NCBI GenBank assembly: GCA_020012075.1
Contig: DWUP01000011.1
Coordinates: 1 to 40,963 of the forward strand
Direction of reading: 5' to 3'
Length of the DNA: 40,963 bases
Source: Candidatus Avibacteroides avistercoris
GTDB taxonomy: Bacteria; Bacteroidota; Bacteroidia; Bacteroidales; Bacteroidaceae
Made by a program: the position numbers and the translations under genes. Below the pieces are notes generated by a model, which worked only from the letters and a program-made list of their open reading frames with translations, did no database searches and was not told where the DNA came from. Shown here in pieces: positions 3,571 to 36,076 of the stretch; position 1 is the first letter of the stretch, and each line of letters opens with the position of its first letter.

Positions 3571-3594
3571 AAAGGAAGTCGGGAGACTTCCTTT
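3571..3594. terminator. Hairpin, probable terminator of the CPBP gene (minus) and/or a short plus-strand transcript
   Basis: AAAGGAAGTC GGGA GACTTCCTTT perfect 10-bp stem with 4-nt loop. Confidence 0.6.
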
Positions 3595-27820: not shown

Positions 27821-29008
27821 ATGGGACTGCTACAAGACAAATTGGCGAAATATGATTTGCCGCAGAGAGTTAAGGCAAAAGGCGTATACCCCTACTTCAG
27901 ATGTATAGAGAGCCAGCAAGACACCGAAGTCATTATGAGTGGCCGCAAAGTGCTTATGTTCGGCTCAAATTCTTACCTCGGGCTTACCAACCATCCCAAA
28001 GTCATTGAAGCCGCTGTCGAGGCTACAAAAAAATATGGCACCGGATGTGCCGGCTCACGATTCCTGAACGGGACTCTCGATCTGCACCTTGAACTCGAGA
28101 AAGAGCTCGCAGAGTTTGTAGGCAAAGAGGAAGCGATAATCTACTCTACGGGCTTCCAAGTCAATCTCGGCGTCGTGTCTTGTCTCACGGGACGTGAGGA
28201 CTACATCATCTGCGACGAGCTTGACCACGCCTCAATCGTCGAAGGGCGCAGGCTGTCATTTTCCAAGGGACTCAAATTCAAGCACAATGACATGGAGTCT
28301 TTGGAGAAAGTTCTCCAAGGGTGCGACCCCGACAGGGTGAAGCTGATAGTCGTGGACGGCGTCTTCAGCATGGAGGGTGACATCGCAAACCTGCCCGAAA
28401 TCACCCGTCTGGCCAAGAAATACAACGCCAATGTAATGGTCGACGAGGCCCACGGACTCGGTGTCCTCGGTGACCACGGGCGCGGCACTTGCAATCACTA
28501 TGGCTTGACAGGCGACGTGGATCTCATCATGGGCACATTCTCCAAATCACTCGCATCCATCGGCGGTTTCATCGCAGCAGACAGTACAATCATCAATTAC
28601 CTGCGGCACAACTCACGCTCCTACATTTTCAGTGCGAGCGCCACACCGGCGGCCACGGCAGCCGCGCGCGCGGCACTGCACATCATGAAGACCGAGCCCG
28701 AGCGCATCCAGCACCTTTGGGACATCACCAACTATGCTTTGGACAGTTTCCGCACCCTTGGCTTCGAAATCGGCAACACATCGACCCCGATCATACCGCT
28801 CTATGTGCGCGACATGGAGAAGACTTTCCTCGTGACAAGGATGCTCTTCGACGAAGGGGTTTTCGTCAATCCGGTCATTCCGCCGGCATGTTCGCCCGAG
28901 GACACACTCATCAGATTCTCCCTCATGGCGACACACACCAAGGAGCAAATAGACATAGCAGTGGACAAACTCTACAAATGCTTCAAGCAGCTCGGCATCC
29001 TCAAATAA
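27821..29008 (+). CDS. spt: Serine palmitoyltransferase (alpha-oxoamine synthase family)
   Basis: MGLLQDKLAKYDLPQRVKAKGVYPYFRCIES..., VDEAHGLGVLG, MGTFSKSLASIGGFIA; N-terminus and length resemble the Bacteroides SPT rather than KBL. Confidence 0.82.
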   Translation: MGLLQDKLAKYDLPQRVKAKGVYPYFRCIESQQDTEVIMSGRKVLMFGSNSYLGLTNHPKVIEAAVEATKKYGTGCAGSRFLNGTLDLHLELEKELAEFVGKEEAIIYSTGFQVNLGVVSCLTGREDYIICDELDHASIVEGRRLSFSKGLKFKHNDMESLEKVLQGCDPDRVKLIVVDGVFSMEGDIANLPEITRLAKKYNANVMVDEAHGLGVLGDHGRGTCNHYGLTGDVDLIMGTFSKSLASIGGFIAADSTIINYLRHNSRSYIFSASATPAATAAARAALHIMKTEPERIQHLWDITNYALDSFRTLGFEIGNTSTPIIPLYVRDMEKTFLVTRMLFDEGVFVNPVIPPACSPEDTLIRFSLMATHTKEQIDIAVDKLYKCFKQLGILK

Positions 29009-29034: not shown

Positions 29035-29079
29035 GACGCCGCCTGAGGGGAAAGCCCCTTCAGGCGGCGTCCGTCTTTT
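29035..29079 (+). terminator. Terminator of spt
   Basis: GACGCCGCCTGAGGGG AAAG CCCCTTCAGGCGGCGTC followed by CGTCTTTTG. Confidence 0.85.
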
Positions 29080-29200: not shown

Positions 29201-29306
29201 CCCGGCATGAGTCGCCGGCACTACAAAGACTTTGCAAAAACATTTCAAGGGCAGGGAGAAAAGCCAACGGCTATGCCGTGGCGATACAAGGTCCTACAAT
29301 CATCCG

Positions 29307-29424: not shown

Positions 29425-30714
29425 ATGAAGACCATCAGGCTGTGGCTCATCGCCACCACATTGCCGGTGCTTGTGACGGCACAGACGGCAAGAACCGAAA
29501 TCGAGGAATGTCCCGACCTCGCCGCCGGGAAATATCTCGCATACCATGCACCCGAAGTGAGACTGACACCTGCGCCGCGAGGCTACAGACCGTTCTACAT
29601 CTCTACATTCGCACGGCATGGCTCGCGCTATCTCACCAAGGAGCACAAATACACCCGCCCGCTGTCGGTGCTGCATGCCGCTGACGAGGCAGGGGTGCTG
29701 AGCGACGACGGCCGGAGGGCAATGGCAGTCATCGAGTCACTGGCAGAGATGGCAGAGGGACGCTATGGCGAACTGACCCCGAAGGGAGCACACCAGCACG
29801 AACAACTCATCGAGAGGATGGTCGAGACCTATCCCGCCGTGTTCGCCGACGGCGCACGCATCGATGCACGGTCCACCTACAAGACACGGGCATTCCTGTC
29901 GATGGCGGCTGCCTGCGCGCACCTCAAGGGCATGAGACCCGGCATCACGCTGACGATGGATGCCAGCCAGCACGACGCCTATTATATGAAATACAAGAAT
30001 CCAGCCTACGAAGCCATGCATCTGGCAAATGCAGACTCGGTCTACCGCGCGGCAGACAGCGCCTATGTCCACCCCGCCCGGCTCATGAGCCGGCTGTTCA
30101 CAGACACGGCATACATAGCGGCCAACATCGACGGAGTGCAAATGATGCAAGACCTCTTTGAGCTGCACGGCATAAGCCAGAGCAGTTATGACGCTCCCGG
30201 CCTCGGATTCCTGTTCGACGATGATGAGCTGTATGACCTTTGGCAGCGCAACAACTTCGAGTGGTACTATGAGAAAGGCCCTTCACCGCTGAGCGGCGGC
30301 CACATGTACTATCTGGAGTGCAACCTGTTGTCAAACTTCGTCACCATGGCTGACGAAGCCATCGCCTCGGGCATACACGGTGCCACCCTCAGATACGGGC
30401 ACGACACCAACCTTGCCCCGCTCGCAGCATTGATGGGCATCGATTCCCTCCAAGTCCGGATCCGTGACTGGCAGCGCATAGCCGACACCTATCGCACCTA
30501 TCGCATCATACCCATGTGCGGCAACGTGCAGGTCATCTTTTATAAAAGGAAAAACGACAGCGACATCATCGTCAAAGTGCTGCTCAACGAGCGCGAAGCC
30601 TCACTGCCCGTCGCGAGCGACATACTGCCCTACTACCACTGGGCTGACGTGCGCCGGCTATGGATTCAGACGGCCGAAGCCATCAGCCTGCCCGCCACAG
30701 ACGGCGACGAATGA
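29425..30714 (+). CDS. Histidine-type (clade 2) phosphatase, MINPP/phytase-like, exported
   Basis: 429 aa; signal peptide; FARHGSRYL catalytic motif and RYGHDTNLAPLAALMG HD motif. Confidence 0.85.
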   Translation: MKTIRLWLIATTLPVLVTAQTARTEIEECPDLAAGKYLAYHAPEVRLTPAPRGYRPFYISTFARHGSRYLTKEHKYTRPLSVLHAADEAGVLSDDGRRAMAVIESLAEMAEGRYGELTPKGAHQHEQLIERMVETYPAVFADGARIDARSTYKTRAFLSMAAACAHLKGMRPGITLTMDASQHDAYYMKYKNPAYEAMHLANADSVYRAADSAYVHPARLMSRLFTDTAYIAANIDGVQMMQDLFELHGISQSSYDAPGLGFLFDDDELYDLWQRNNFEWYYEKGPSPLSGGHMYYLECNLLSNFVTMADEAIASGIHGATLRYGHDTNLAPLAALMGIDSLQVRIRDWQRIADTYRTYRIIPMCGNVQVIFYKRKNDSDIIVKVLLNEREASLPVASDILPYYHWADVRRLWIQTAEAISLPATDGDE

Positions 30715-30785
30715 TGTAGCACAAATGTCACACACATTAATTCCCATCGTAACACTATCGCACAAACCATGTAAACAAGCACGGA

Positions 30786-30793
30786 TACTTTTG
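30786..30793 (+). promoter_or_regulatory. -7 element TACTTTTG for the TonB-dependent receptor
   Basis: TAnnTTTG match 29 nt upstream of the ATG. Confidence 0.55.
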
Positions 30794-30821
30794 CACCGGA
30801 ATCAGATAAAGGTACACAGAG

Positions 30822-33458
30822 ATGCAAAAGCCGTTCTTGATCAGTCTCTTCCTGCTTACGGCGCTGACAGCCAGTCCAAGCGACATCAGAGGTAAAGTCA
30901 AAGACGCAAAGACAGGGGAAGAAATAATAGGAGCCACGATTACCATAAAGGAAAACCCGTCAGAGGGGACAGTCACAGGCCTTGACGGGAGTTTCACGCT
31001 GAACAGCAAACATCAGAGATACACACTCGTATGCTCATACGTCGGCTACAAAGACTATGAAATAGAGGTAGACGACAAGAGCGGCGACATCGAAATCCCA
31101 CTCTCGACCAACGAAGTACTGCTCGAAGGCGTGACAGTCACCGCCACCAACCCCGGCAGGACCGAGGCCGGCGCACGCGGAATCGAAAAGCACGCCATGA
31201 ATGTGGTCAATGTCATGAGCGCAAAGGCCATAGAGTTGTCGCCTGACATCACGGTGGCCAACGTGATCCAAAGGATGTCGGGCGTGACCATCGAGCGCAA
31301 CAGCAGCGGCGACGGGCAGTACGCCATCCTGCGTGGCATGGACAAACGCTACAATTATACCCTCGTCAATGGCGTAAAGATACCGAGTCCGGACAACAAA
31401 AACCGCTTCGTGCCGCTCGACATATTCCCCTCAGAGATGCTGGACAGGCTCGAAGTGACCAAATCACTGACCGCAGACATGGAGGGCGACGGGATCGGCG
31501 GCGCGGTCAATCTGGTGATGAAAGACGCACCGGCGCAGAGACAATTCACGGCCAACATATCCACGGGCTACAACTCGATGTATTTCGACCGCGATTTCCA
31601 GTCATTCAACTGGGGAGCAATCAACAAGAAATCCCCCGACGAACGCCTCGGGACGACGCAGCTCGGGAGCATCATGCGGGCCGAATACTTTGACAAAGCC
31701 CCGCTGCACGTCACCGAGAGGACACCACTGCCCGACTTGACCGCCAGCATGTCCTATGGCGACCGCTTCTTCGGCGACAAACTGGGCATAATGATTGCCG
31801 GCAGCTTCCAAAGCACCAACCGCGGCCGCGAGAGCAACATCGAGTACAAGCCCGGAGAGTCGCTCCACGGTACACTCCACAGGAATTATTCCGTGCGCCA
31901 GATGCGCACCGGAGCCCACATAAAACTCGACTACAACATCAATAGCACCAACAAGCTGACGTGGTACAACGGATATATCGACATGCGCGAAGGCGAGGTG
32001 CGCGACGGACATGACGATGCAGACCGCGAAGTGAGGCTGGAGTGGAACCACCAATATATATTCAATTCGACACTCAAGGGCATCCATAAGTTCCTCGACG
32101 ACGGAGCATTGATGCTCGACTGGGCAGCCGGCGGGTCAAAAGCCTACAACGAAACTCCTGACGAGGTCAAAATGGAATTCAACGGCCGGCGGGTCTACTC
32201 GCAAAACAGTGCAGAGCGACGCTGGGAACACAACTCCGACCGAGACCTCTTCGCCCAAGCCAACCTGAGCTATAAACTGAAGATAGACGGCCGCCAAAGC
32301 ATTGACTTCAAGGTCGGCGGGCTATACAGGGACAAGCAGCGCAGCAGCTTCTTCAACAGTTACACGTTCAATTCCGAGACCGGCTATGATTGGAAGAACT
32401 TCGATGACATAGTCTTCACGCCCCGACGCCGCTATGGCAACATCGCAGACCCGCTCAACTATGACGCTACCGAGCGCATCGGCGCGGCCTACCTCATGGC
32501 CAAATATGTCAGACCATTGTGGGAAATCAACGTCGGCATCCGTGCCGAGCATACAGACCAAGGCTATGTACTGAAATTCCCGGAGGACAATTCAGCCCCC
32601 GAGGGTGCACAGAAATACTGGGACTGGCTGCCGAGCGCACATTTGAAATTCAATGTCCACGAAAACGCCAACCTGCGTTTCTCCTACTATCGTGCCATCA
32701 ATCGCCCGAGTTTCTTCGAGATTGTGCCCTACAGCCTCATAGGTGACGATTACAACGAGGAAGGCAATCCGGATTTGAGACACACCGTCGCCGACAATCT
32801 GGACCTGCGCTATGAGTTCTTCCCCAGTTCGAGCGAGCAATTCATGATAGGCCTGTTTTACAAAAACATACAAGACCCGATAGAATATGGTCTGTTCACC
32901 GAGGGAATGGACCTGACCTACAAACCCATGAATCTCGGCACAGCCACCAATCTGGGCGTTGAAGTCGATGTCATGAAGTATTTCAACTGGTTTGGCATCA
33001 AAGCCAACTACACCTACACACACTCGGCAATCACGACAGAGAAGCAGAAAATGGTCGGCAATGACGTAGTCATGGAGGAACAGACACGCCCCCTCTATGG
33101 ACAGGCATCGCACGTAGCCAACCTCTCACTGCTGTTCAAAAGCAGCAAATACGGATGGGAAGGGCAGATACTCGGGTCATACACCGGCAAACGCCTGTCC
33201 GAGATTTCGACATGGCTCGATGATGACATCTGGGAGAAAGGCTACTTCCAGCTCGATGCTTCGGTGGAGAAGAGCTTCAAATTCGGTCTGACCATCTATG
33301 CCAAGGCATCCAACCTGCTCGACACACCGCTCCTGCGCTATATCAATGCAGGCCCGCACACGGTGAATGTCACCTCAAGGCGCGTCGATGGCAATGTCGT
33401 CGAGAGAGAGTCGTGGAGTGGACGGACATTCATGATAGGCATACGTTACAGACTCTGA
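30822..33458 (+). CDS. TonB-dependent receptor with N-terminal CarboxypepD_reg-like domain
   Basis: 878 aa; DIRGKVKDAKTGEEIIGATITIKE; plug YAILRGMDKRYNYTLVNGVKIPSPDNKNRFVPLDIFPSEMLDRLEVTKSLTADMEGDGIGGAVNL; C-terminal FMIGIRYRL. Confidence 0.92.
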   Translation: MQKPFLISLFLLTALTASPSDIRGKVKDAKTGEEIIGATITIKENPSEGTVTGLDGSFTLNSKHQRYTLVCSYVGYKDYEIEVDDKSGDIEIPLSTNEVLLEGVTVTATNPGRTEAGARGIEKHAMNVVNVMSAKAIELSPDITVANVIQRMSGVTIERNSSGDGQYAILRGMDKRYNYTLVNGVKIPSPDNKNRFVPLDIFPSEMLDRLEVTKSLTADMEGDGIGGAVNLVMKDAPAQRQFTANISTGYNSMYFDRDFQSFNWGAINKKSPDERLGTTQLGSIMRAEYFDKAPLHVTERTPLPDLTASMSYGDRFFGDKLGIMIAGSFQSTNRGRESNIEYKPGESLHGTLHRNYSVRQMRTGAHIKLDYNINSTNKLTWYNGYIDMREGEVRDGHDDADREVRLEWNHQYIFNSTLKGIHKFLDDGALMLDWAAGGSKAYNETPDEVKMEFNGRRVYSQNSAERRWEHNSDRDLFAQANLSYKLKIDGRQSIDFKVGGLYRDKQRSSFFNSYTFNSETGYDWKNFDDIVFTPRRRYGNIADPLNYDATERIGAAYLMAKYVRPLWEINVGIRAEHTDQGYVLKFPEDNSAPEGAQKYWDWLPSAHLKFNVHENANLRFSYYRAINRPSFFEIVPYSLIGDDYNEEGNPDLRHTVADNLDLRYEFFPSSSEQFMIGLFYKNIQDPIEYGLFTEGMDLTYKPMNLGTATNLGVEVDVMKYFNWFGIKANYTYTHSAITTEKQKMVGNDVVMEEQTRPLYGQASHVANLSLLFKSSKYGWEGQILGSYTGKRLSEISTWLDDDIWEKGYFQLDASVEKSFKFGLTIYAKASNLLDTPLLRYINAGPHTVNVTSRRVDGNVVERESWSGRTFMIGIRYRL

Positions 33459-33510
33459 CAGAAACTATAAAATCAACTTATACAACAACATTCACAATCA
33501 ATTAATTCCT

Positions 33511-34986
33511 ATGAAATTCAAGTATCTATTCTATGCAGTTGCCATGATGGCGACAATGGGATTGGCTACGACATCATGTAGCGATGATGATGAAAATGAC
33601 ATCGTGCCACCGACACAGACAGATGACGACGATGACAAGGGAGATCCTACCGACGGAGCCGACATGGTGGTCTCGGGGGATGTGTCCGGGACTTGGACTG
33701 CCGGCACGACAGTAGCAGTGACCGACCACATCACAGTGCCCGAAGGACAGAGCCTGACTATTGAAGAGGGTGTCACCGTCGTATTCACCACCGATGGTGT
33801 CGGCTCCAACCACGTGCCTGTGGAGTTTATCGTCAGGGGCAACCTCTATTGCAAAGGGAGCGAAGAGCGCCCCATCCTGATGACCATACCTGAAGCCGAG
33901 AGGACTACGGCCAATATCCACAAAGTCGAGCATGAATGGGGCGGCATCGTGGCCTACGAGTCATGCGACGAGATGCTCATCGACCACACGATTATCGAAT
34001 ATACCGGCGGTGAAGTCGTGCAAGGCTCGCCATCTGCCGATGCAGGCTACTATGAGGCAGGTGATGACATTTATCCTCAGATAACGACCAACAACCCCAA
34101 CGGCCGCTATGTGATCACCAACAACATCATCCGCTACGGCCAGTCTGACGGCATCTACATGATGGGAGGACAAGCCATAATAGCAAACAATATCTTCGCC
34201 GGCAACGGATATGACGGTGAAGAGGCCGTAAACGTCAAGTCCGGTTGCATCGTCGATGTAGCCTACAACATCATGTATTCGCCCAACACCAACGGACTCA
34301 AGTTGTCAAGCTCAGGACAGAGCGAGACGCGCTACCAGGCCGAGATTACTGCCTACAACAACACCATCCTCAACGCGGGGTGGCGTCGTGACGGCGAGAA
34401 AGGCGGGAGCATCTATGCACAAGAGAATGTGCTGGCCAACGTCTTCAACAACATGATGGTCAATTGCAAATACCGCGCCCAAGTGCCTGACTGGGCCAAC
34501 CCCAACAATCCTGATGCAGGCTTCGACGCCCGCTCGGTCATAGACTACAACTGCTATGTCTCGGCATCGACCAAGAGCGACCTCATCATCGAGAAATGGG
34601 AAGACGATGGCGAAATCATCATGGGTCAAGGCATCGAATATGCATGGCAGGGCTACAACTATGCCCATGAGGACTATCACTTCGAGCAAAGCGTAGCCGA
34701 AGACGGCACGACTATCCCGGGCGTAGACAGCCACAGTGTCATAGCCACCGAGGGCAACTACTACAATCCGCAGTTTGCCAACTATGACCTCGAAGGGGCA
34801 AGCATGAGAAACGTCATCTATGACGACAACTGGGACTTCCACCCGACGGTCAATATCGAAGGTGCCTACAGCGGCAGCGATGAGTTTGCACGCCCGCACT
34901 TCTCGACCAGTGGCCTCAACATCGGTGGCGAAGTCTACAACTCGCCAAGTGTAGGTGCATGGTTCGGTTGCTATGCCGCTAACTGA
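33511..34986 (+). CDS. Lipoprotein with right-handed parallel beta-helix domain
   Basis: 491 aa; SPII signal ...ATTSC then SDDDENDI acidic tract; repeated YVITNNIIRYGQSDGIYM / AIIANNIFAGNGYD / CIVDVAYNIMYSPNTNGLKL rungs. Confidence 0.75.
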   Translation: MKFKYLFYAVAMMATMGLATTSCSDDDENDIVPPTQTDDDDDKGDPTDGADMVVSGDVSGTWTAGTTVAVTDHITVPEGQSLTIEEGVTVVFTTDGVGSNHVPVEFIVRGNLYCKGSEERPILMTIPEAERTTANIHKVEHEWGGIVAYESCDEMLIDHTIIEYTGGEVVQGSPSADAGYYEAGDDIYPQITTNNPNGRYVITNNIIRYGQSDGIYMMGGQAIIANNIFAGNGYDGEEAVNVKSGCIVDVAYNIMYSPNTNGLKLSSSGQSETRYQAEITAYNNTILNAGWRRDGEKGGSIYAQENVLANVFNNMMVNCKYRAQVPDWANPNNPDAGFDARSVIDYNCYVSASTKSDLIIEKWEDDGEIIMGQGIEYAWQGYNYAHEDYHFEQSVAEDGTTIPGVDSHSVIATEGNYYNPQFANYDLEGASMRNVIYDDNWDFHPTVNIEGAYSGSDEFARPHFSTSGLNIGGEVYNSPSVGAWFGCYAAN

Positions 34987-35094
34987 TCCGTCCACTCAGA
35001 CATGACATTCATTCCATTTATCACACCGCTTCTCAGGAGCATAAGGGAATGCCCCGGGAAGCGGTCTTTCATCCATCAATAACACACCAGACCA

Positions 35095-36030
35095 ATGAAC
35101 AGACTATTAACAAGCCTGCTTTTCATAGCATGTGCGGCAATAATGCAGGCTCAGGACGCAGCCGCATGGAAGCAATTGGAGCGTCCGCTCAACTTCTATC
35201 TCGCCAACGACCTCGGGCGCAACGGCTACTATGACCAGAAACCCATAGCCGAACTGATGGGACGCATGGCCGAGGCTATCGACATCGAGTTTGTCGTGGC
35301 CGCCGGTGACGTGCACCACTTCGAGGGAGTGCGCAGCGTAGATGACCCCCTCTGGATGACCAATTACGAGCTAATCTACAGTCACCCCGACCTTATGTTG
35401 CCGTGGTATCCCATCCTCGGCAACCACGAGTACCGCGGCAACACTCAGGCAGTCATCGATTACAGCAATGTCAGCGCACGCTGGCAGATGCCGGCCCGCT
35501 ACTATACCAAGGTGATGGAGGAAGACGGCATCACCGTGCGCCTTGTCATGACCGACACGCCGCCGATGATCGACAAGTACCGCAAGGACACCGACAAATA
35601 TCCCGATGCCGGCAAGCAAGACCTCAATGCACAACTCGAGTGGGTAGACTCGGTGCTGACTGTCGCCAAGGAGGACTGGGTCATCGTCGTGGGTCATCAT
35701 CCCATCTATGCAGACACCGACAAGAATGACACAGAGCGCACCGACATGCAGCGTCGCCTCGACACCATCCTGCGCAAGCACGGCAATGTCGATTTCTACA
35801 TCTGCGGCCACATCCACAACTTCCAGCACATCCGTATGCCGGAGTCAGACATCGACTATGTGGTCAATTCGTCAGGCTCGCTGTCACGCGAAGTCAAGCC
35901 TGTCGATGGCACAGTGTTTTGCAGCGATGCTACGGGCTATTCGCTGATCACGGTGAACAAAGACGAGATAGATCTCCACATGATCGACCGCGACGGCAAG
36001 GTCATACACACCGTCAAGAGGACGAAATGA
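35095..36030 (+). CDS. Metallophosphoesterase (tartrate-resistant/purple acid phosphatase-like), exported
   Basis: 311 aa; signal peptide; VVAAGDVHHFEG, LGNHEYRGN, VVGHHPIYAD, ICGHIHNFQH. Confidence 0.88.
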   Translation: MNRLLTSLLFIACAAIMQAQDAAAWKQLERPLNFYLANDLGRNGYYDQKPIAELMGRMAEAIDIEFVVAAGDVHHFEGVRSVDDPLWMTNYELIYSHPDLMLPWYPILGNHEYRGNTQAVIDYSNVSARWQMPARYYTKVMEEDGITVRLVMTDTPPMIDKYRKDTDKYPDAGKQDLNAQLEWVDSVLTVAKEDWVIVVGHHPIYADTDKNDTERTDMQRRLDTILRKHGNVDFYICGHIHNFQHIRMPESDIDYVVNSSGSLSREVKPVDGTVFCSDATGYSLITVNKDEIDLHMIDRDGKVIHTVKRTK

Positions 36031-36043
36031 CACGACACACACC

Positions 36044-36076
36044 GAGGGCATCCCCTGTGGGATGCCCTCCTTTTTT
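36044..36076 (+). terminator. Terminator of the phosphatase cluster
   Basis: GAGGGCATCCC CTGT GGGATGCCCTC followed by CTTTTTT. Confidence 0.92.

Follow-up and report, generated by a model that had tools for sequence, protein, structure and literature searches.

In Flavobacterium johnsoniae, the gene pairs PUSIII (Fjoh_3857/3856) and PUSIV (Fjoh_0545/0546) each encode a TonB-dependent transporter (TBDT) and a pectin-lyase-type lipoprotein that is induced at low inorganic phosphate (Pi), and the PUSIV pair is located with phoBR (PMC8115612). The two lipoproteins, FI and FII, share 31-36% identity with ElpS of Caulobacter crescentus, and Lidbury et al. have proposed that they bind plant glycans (PMC8115612). 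ElpS is a surface lipoprotein induced by phosphate starvation, and its gene co-occurs with the TonB-dependent receptor gene cc0171 (PMC2996285). In Bacteroides thetaiotaomicron, BtMinpp is a secreted inositol-phosphate phosphatase carried in vesicles (PMC3969271). Here we compare with these systems a gene cluster in a stretch of 40,963 nucleotides (hereafter the window; contig DWUP01000011.1 of assembly GCA_020012075.1) from Candidatus Avibacteroides avistercoris, the source of which is a 1.99-Mb draft genome in 201 contigs. The cluster encodes a TonB-dependent receptor (TBDR), a beta-helix lipoprotein (BH) and a metallophosphoesterase (MPE), with a histidine phosphatase (HP) at its 5' end; we consider it probable, on genomic grounds, that these form a Pho-regulated organophosphate acquisition system.

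An initial annotation of the window had described four same-strand genes closed by a strong terminator at 36044, and a receptor without SusD. These elements all stand: the coordinates and strand agree, the terminator is present, and no gene of the cluster has a SusD-family match in Pfam. Domains were assigned by Pfam, NCBIfam and PDB sequence searches, and the features of the cluster are as follows.

29425-30714, + strand: HP, exported histidine phosphatase of the branch-2 (HP2) family, 429 aa, accessory gene (Pfam, PDB; signal peptide by inspection).
30822-33458, + strand: TBDR, TonB-dependent receptor with an N-terminal CarboxypepD_reg-like domain, 878 aa (Pfam, TIGR01782, tree).
33511-34986, + strand: BH, predicted right-handed beta-helix lipoprotein, 491 aa (AlphaFold2, Foldseek, invariant Cys, export-signal rule).
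35095-36030, + strand: MPE, exported metallophosphoesterase of predicted purple-acid-phosphatase (TRAP) fold, 311 aa (Pfam, PDB, ligands, TM).
36044-36069, + strand: intrinsic terminator at the 3' end of the cluster (11 pairs, 8 of them GC, with a T-run).

With the TBDR sequence as query, 59 named loci were retrieved, and the best-matching named records are from Bacteroidales, for example Paraprevotella and Phocaeicola. BH follows TBDR at 58 of the 59 loci, and 53 loci have MPE; of the six without it, two stop at a contig edge. Hosts of the triad include Phocaeicola plebeius, P. coprocola, P. coprophilus and P. barnesiae as well as Parabacteroides, Paraprevotella, Coprenecus and Cryptobacteroides, and as the flanking genes vary between these genera, the triad behaves as a unit. 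The conserved core is thus TBDR-BH-MPE, which recurs in Bacteroidales in a wide range of genomic settings, with MPE placed 5' of TBDR in a few genomes (four loci). Its occurrence is patchy (19 of 151 sampled genomes of the family and 9 of 119 of the order).

Conservation beyond this strain, which the initial annotation had named as a check on its proposal, is thus observed widely for the triad. HP lies 5' of TBDR in the window and in only 11 of the 59 named loci (Phocaeicola and relatives). The 108-bp gap between HP and TBDR carries its own -7 element, so HP need not share the TBDR transcript. A simple four-gene operon was rejected on the grounds of this low frequency and of the separate upstream region of HP, which is an optional neighbour of the triad. 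Close HP orthologues also occur unlinked to TBDR, yet they are concentrated in genomes that have the receptor (8 of 11 against 11 of 140, P = 2e-6, a value uncorrected for phylogeny).

Among the individual loci, L110 of a Parabacteroides distasonis strain has a split receptor and a BH of only 104 aa, which gives it the look of a decayed system, and in Phocaeicola coprocola (L054) a transposase-like gene interrupts the cluster after TBDR. Polyphosphate kinase adjoins the triad at seven loci of one Bacteroidales lineage, mostly with an exopolyphosphatase-like gene. Record titles and host names (L053-L110) often suggest poultry or other gut sources, for which cereal diets are phytate-rich.

We found that TBDR, which has the plug, barrel and CarboxypepD domains of Pfam, scores 292 bits against TIGR01782, slightly below the cut-off of 310, and 42 bits against the siderophore model TIGR01783, for which the cut-off is 223.5. 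The NCBIfam search gave no match to the cobalamin receptor model, and PDB matches were limited to a SusC-type N-terminal domain and the Cir plug. A siderophore or cobalamin receptor was rejected on these scores and matches; the grouping with such receptors that the initial annotation had named as evidence against its proposal is not observed. In a maximum-likelihood tree, every receptor partnered by BH falls in one clade (support 100/99), separate from the PhoBR-adjacent receptors, and four receptors from MPE loci that lack BH join the receptors of beta-propeller phytases (support 100/100).

The enzymes found beside these receptors point to the class of substrate. Next to remote TBDR-BH pairs we found a beta-propeller phytase (PF02333; L028 and one other locus, and in L023 beside a BH without a detected receptor), a phytase-like PF13449 protein (L030 and one other), PhoD (one locus) and Metallophos enzymes (six loci), and in L029 BH is followed by an exported inorganic pyrophosphatase. 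That one and the same receptor-lipoprotein pair has independently gained phytases and other phosphatases of unrelated folds as neighbours supports an organophosphate substrate. MPE orthologues without BH lie directly 3' of another TBDR at five loci, and four pairs of a TBDT and a beta-propeller phytase were recovered; MPE replaces the phytase at the same receptor clade. The swap of MPE and beta-propeller phytase at two receptor clades indicates interchangeable partners; this is our main argument for a common substrate class, and it suggests that both act on a phytate-like substrate. Inspection by eye also showed MPE-family proteins in a PUSI-like setting, after SusD-like proteins (two loci) or a phospholipase-C-like protein (one locus).

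MPE had been annotated as an exported metallophosphoesterase, and this is borne out by Pfam (Metallophos, E = 5e-16) and by PDB matches to purple acid phosphatases (PAPs; E about 1e-32). Its fold has TM scores of 0.79-0.82 to the pig and human enzymes, and the wheat PAP phytase is also among the structure matches. The metal ligands D39, D72, N110, H201, H239 and H241 are invariant in the alignment; MPE is thus predicted to have the mammalian-type (TRAP) fold with Asp, Asn and His ligands kept. The Tyr metal ligand, the source of the purple colour in purple acid phosphatases (GDxxY), is replaced in MPE by the nearly invariant His75 (GDVHH), and MPE should therefore not be purple.

HP matches His_Phos_2 (PF00328, E = 6e-13); its closest PDB match is 7r5y (E = 1e-171), on which our literature search found no publication, and BtMINPP matches with E = 2e-45. 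It has the RHGxR motif (RHGSRY) and an HD-type proton donor (YGHDTN), which together with the His_Phos_2 domain place it among the HP2 phosphatases. The proton-donor tripeptide HAE is the mark of MINPP (PMC3969271), and HP has HDT where HAE would align. The earlier assignment to the MINPP/phytase family thus stands for an exported HP2 phosphatase and falls for MINPP proper.

For BH, the match to the Pfam Beta_helix family is weak (19.7 bits, under the family cut-off) and the PDB sequence search gave no match. The beta-helix lipoprotein that had been proposed is backed by an AlphaFold2 model of a right-handed beta-helix (pLDDT 83.5, pTM 0.85), by Foldseek, in which AlgG and other right-handed beta-helix enzymes are the nearest PDB folds (marginal E-values), and by a lipid-bearing Cys23 (33577-33579) that is invariant in the alignment. 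The residues after Cys23 are SDDDE, and the surface-export signal of Bacteroides lipoproteins is S(D/E)3 beside the lipidated cysteine (PMC6222051). BH agrees with this rule and is accordingly a predicted surface lipoprotein; some orthologues have shorter acidic runs. The basic residues K243, K264 and R292, invariant in the alignment, could form a patch for an anionic ligand.

The upstream regions of TBDR and HP carry repeats that resemble a Pho-box, with the following predicted elements in the window.

29232-29247, - strand: Pho-box-like pair of 11-bp-phased repeats, TGAAATGTTTTTGCAA, upstream of HP (strict TGNAAN6TGNAA match; position weight matrix; prediction).
30714-30785, + strand: degenerate 11-bp Pho-box-like repeat array upstream of TBDR, its clearest unit being TGTAA at 30770-30774 (prediction).
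30786-30793, + strand: -7 promoter element of TBDR, TACTTTTG, of the TAnnTTTG type, at an invariant position in aligned relatives.

We take TACTTTTG to be the -7 element by way of the Bacteroidota promoter consensus. Across 46 non-redundant loci, TGNAA units upstream of TBDR fall at -16, -27, -38, -49, -60 and -71 from TAnnTTTG; there are 94 such units against 19.0+/-4.1 in shuffles, and 28 spacing-11 pairs against 0.07 expected. Upstream of HP, these repeats stand in the reverse orientation (16 spacing-11 pairs against 0.09 expected). The known PHO-box geometry is two 11-nt direct repeats (PMC4415409). A genome-wide search for two repeats plus the -7 element gave 14 matches against none in reversed controls, or 27 against three with one mismatch permitted. 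Among the genes that follow the pattern are ppk and a porin gene with pstS after it (three genomes each), DUF47 with pit after it, PHO4, Porin_O_P, genes for metallophosphatases and for a PafA-like type I phosphodiesterase, and TBDR, as well as a glycerophosphodiesterase gene in the window's own genome. A position weight matrix built without the window's own site ranked the TBDR upstream region first (start 30714) and fifth (start 30736), and the HP upstream site sixth, among 81,846 positions; matches at 3574, 3763 and 5569 (- strand), near housekeeping genes in AT-rich DNA, were taken as chance. We predict that the tandem 11-bp repeats common to TBDR and pst promoters in relatives are a mark of the Pho regulon.

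More generally, the predicted Bacteroidales Pho-box consists of TGNAA/TGWAAY units that are phased at 11 bp and lie 16 bp upstream of TAnnTTTG. It marks many phosphate genes across genomes and was seen at 15 of our loci; the papers searched contained no account of it. PhoB of Bacteroides fragilis binds the pstC promoter of that species, and the portion of the source available contains no motif for it (PMC3547664). Genes for copper P-type ATPases and cation efflux have, in the window's genus, pairs of TTGCAA repeats close to a -7 element in front of them (four loci, by eye). This suggests another, metal-responsive operator; TGCAA-type matches before Cu/Zn transporters in that genus were treated as a different operator. 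On the 5' side of HP, the window has at 27821-29008 a gene of the class I/II aminotransferase family resembling serine palmitoyltransferase, parted from HP by its own terminator (29035-29071), which is stronger than that at 36044-36069.

These elements can be joined in a predicted sequence of events. At low phosphate, PhoB would bind the 11-bp tandem repeats that precede TBDR and HP and turn the genes on; BH would capture an anionic phosphate ester at the surface, and TBDR would bring it in using TonB energy, a mode of import that is established for its family. MPE, and HP where present, would then free phosphate in the periplasm or in outer-membrane vesicles, locations that we infer from the signal peptides and the precedent of BtMinpp, and the released phosphate would enter the cell through Pst/Pit. 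Inositol phosphates such as phytate are the most likely substrates, a specific reading to which we give about even odds. More tentatively, and as a possibility that we would not yet favour, MPE may found a class of bacterial phytases (TRAP fold, His for the Tyr ligand) behind a TBDR through which inositol phosphates, once captured by BH, pass intact. The system would then be a transporter that gut Bacteroidales dedicate to phytate.

The organophosphate reading of the initial annotation is thus upheld by a conserved triad, recurrent phosphatase and phytase partners and a non-siderophore receptor, support that is genomic in kind. On co-expression, which that annotation had also named, the Pho-box-like array upstream of TBDR in relatives and the recurrence of its pattern at pst, pit and ppk genes would fit joint control. 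Several observations weigh against this reading. Some matches to the repeat pattern precede genes unrelated to phosphate (glmS, SusC-like receptors, a fimbrillin-like protein and unknowns), and the Pho-box-like repeats in the window itself are degenerate. At eight loci, less similar orthologues of MPE are found where this receptor is missing; BH could be an enzyme instead of a binding protein; and loci of flavobacterial type have phosphodiesterase-like proteins as neighbours, so lineages may differ in substrate. One alternative is Pho-regulated uptake, in place of inositol phosphates, of nucleotides or of phosphodiesters, such as fragments of nucleic acids, glycerophosphodiesters or phospholipid head groups, with MPE and HP just completing dephosphorylation. 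PhoD and weak endonuclease/exonuclease/phosphatase matches beside remote pairs, the shared operator pattern of the glycerophosphodiesterase gene, and the MPE-family proteins seen by eye beside SusD-like or phospholipase-C-like proteins would all fit; however, the nearest Bacteroidales relatives recruit phytases (L023, L028, L030), HP is closest to phytase-type enzymes, and the window cluster has neither nuclease nor diesterase, which makes this explanation rather unlikely.

Import of polyphosphate, pyrophosphate or a metal-phosphate complex, with the phosphatases secondary, would account for the exported pyrophosphatase of L029 and for ppk and ppx beside the triad in some Coprenecus/Cryptobacteroides-type genomes. 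We consider it very unlikely, given that the ppk/ppx neighbourhood is restricted to one lineage, that the core enzyme is a predicted PAP-fold phosphomonoesterase and that its usual alternatives are phytases. A glycan-utilisation locus acting on phosphorylated glycans, with BH as a polysaccharide lyase or binding protein, seems slightly less probable again: the BH model resembles polysaccharide-active beta-helix enzymes and glycan binding has been proposed for FI/FII, but neither the ORF list nor Pfam gives a glycoside hydrolase or glycan sensor in the cluster, SusD is missing, the predicted operator is of Pho type and phosphatases are the constant partners. The lowest probability, close to negligible, goes to a receptor for siderophores, haem or cobalamin that has the phosphatases beside it by chance, as the weak similarity of its plug to that of the colicin I receptor Cir is set against scores far under the siderophore cut-offs, the absent cobalamin match, the conserved phosphatase linkage and the predicted Pho-type operator.

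Phytate, an antinutrient, is a major store of phosphorus in the diet. According to a 2025 review, it is unable to cross bacterial membranes (PMC12482443). A conserved receptor under predicted Pho control, with exchangeable phytases, makes the question of phytate import directly testable in cultured Phocaeicola, and the predicted Pho-box of gut Bacteroidales can be used to predict phosphate regulons.

The initial annotation knew of no named system with this exact composition. Our literature search likewise found no publication on the exact gene combination; there is precedent, however, for clusters induced at low Pi that join a TBDT to a lipoprotein of pectin-lyase-type fold (PMC8115612, PMC2996285). 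HP is homologous to BtMinpp but has HDT in place of HAE, and in the accessible text BtMinpp is not described within such a cluster (PMC3969271). The Fjoh_1368/1367 pair of a TBDT and a beta-propeller phytase is similar in combining a receptor with a phosphatase induced at low Pi (PMC8115612), but lacks a beta-helix lipoprotein and belongs to another receptor clade. MPE resembles mammalian TRAP and the wheat PAP phytase in fold and metal-binding motifs, and differs in its His for Tyr ligand, at about 25% identity. Activity on phytate is possible within the wider PAP fold, as the wheat enzyme shows.

Among the closest parallels are PUSIII and PUSIV, in which, by description, a TBDT likewise adjoins a lipoprotein of pectin-lyase-type fold or homology in a setting of phosphate starvation. 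A BH profile recovers lipoproteins of about 400 aa paired with TBDRs near PhoB-PhoR-like genes (three loci, by eye), and hhalign aligns BH with similar lipoproteins beside PhoB-PhoR at 99.5% probability (E = 4e-23), although solenoid repeats can inflate such scores. A second, FII-like pair of TBDR and beta-helix lipoprotein was observed in two triad-carrying Bacteroidales genomes. ElpS and Cc0171 also resemble the cluster by description, as a starvation-induced lipoprotein and a TonB-dependent receptor linked to phosphatase activity, but they belong to another phylum, with release dependent on a type II secretion system and no PAP or HP2 phosphatase partner reported in the available part of PMC2996285. 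Relative to PUSIII and PUSIV, the present cluster has a receptor of another clade, a tightly linked core enzyme of PAP fold and, optionally, an HP2 phosphatase; it sits in gut Bacteroidales and, unlike PUSIV, away from phoBR. The system is a distinct branch of the known kind that joins a TBDT to a beta-helix lipoprotein, set apart by its PAP-fold core enzyme and optional HP2 phosphatase.

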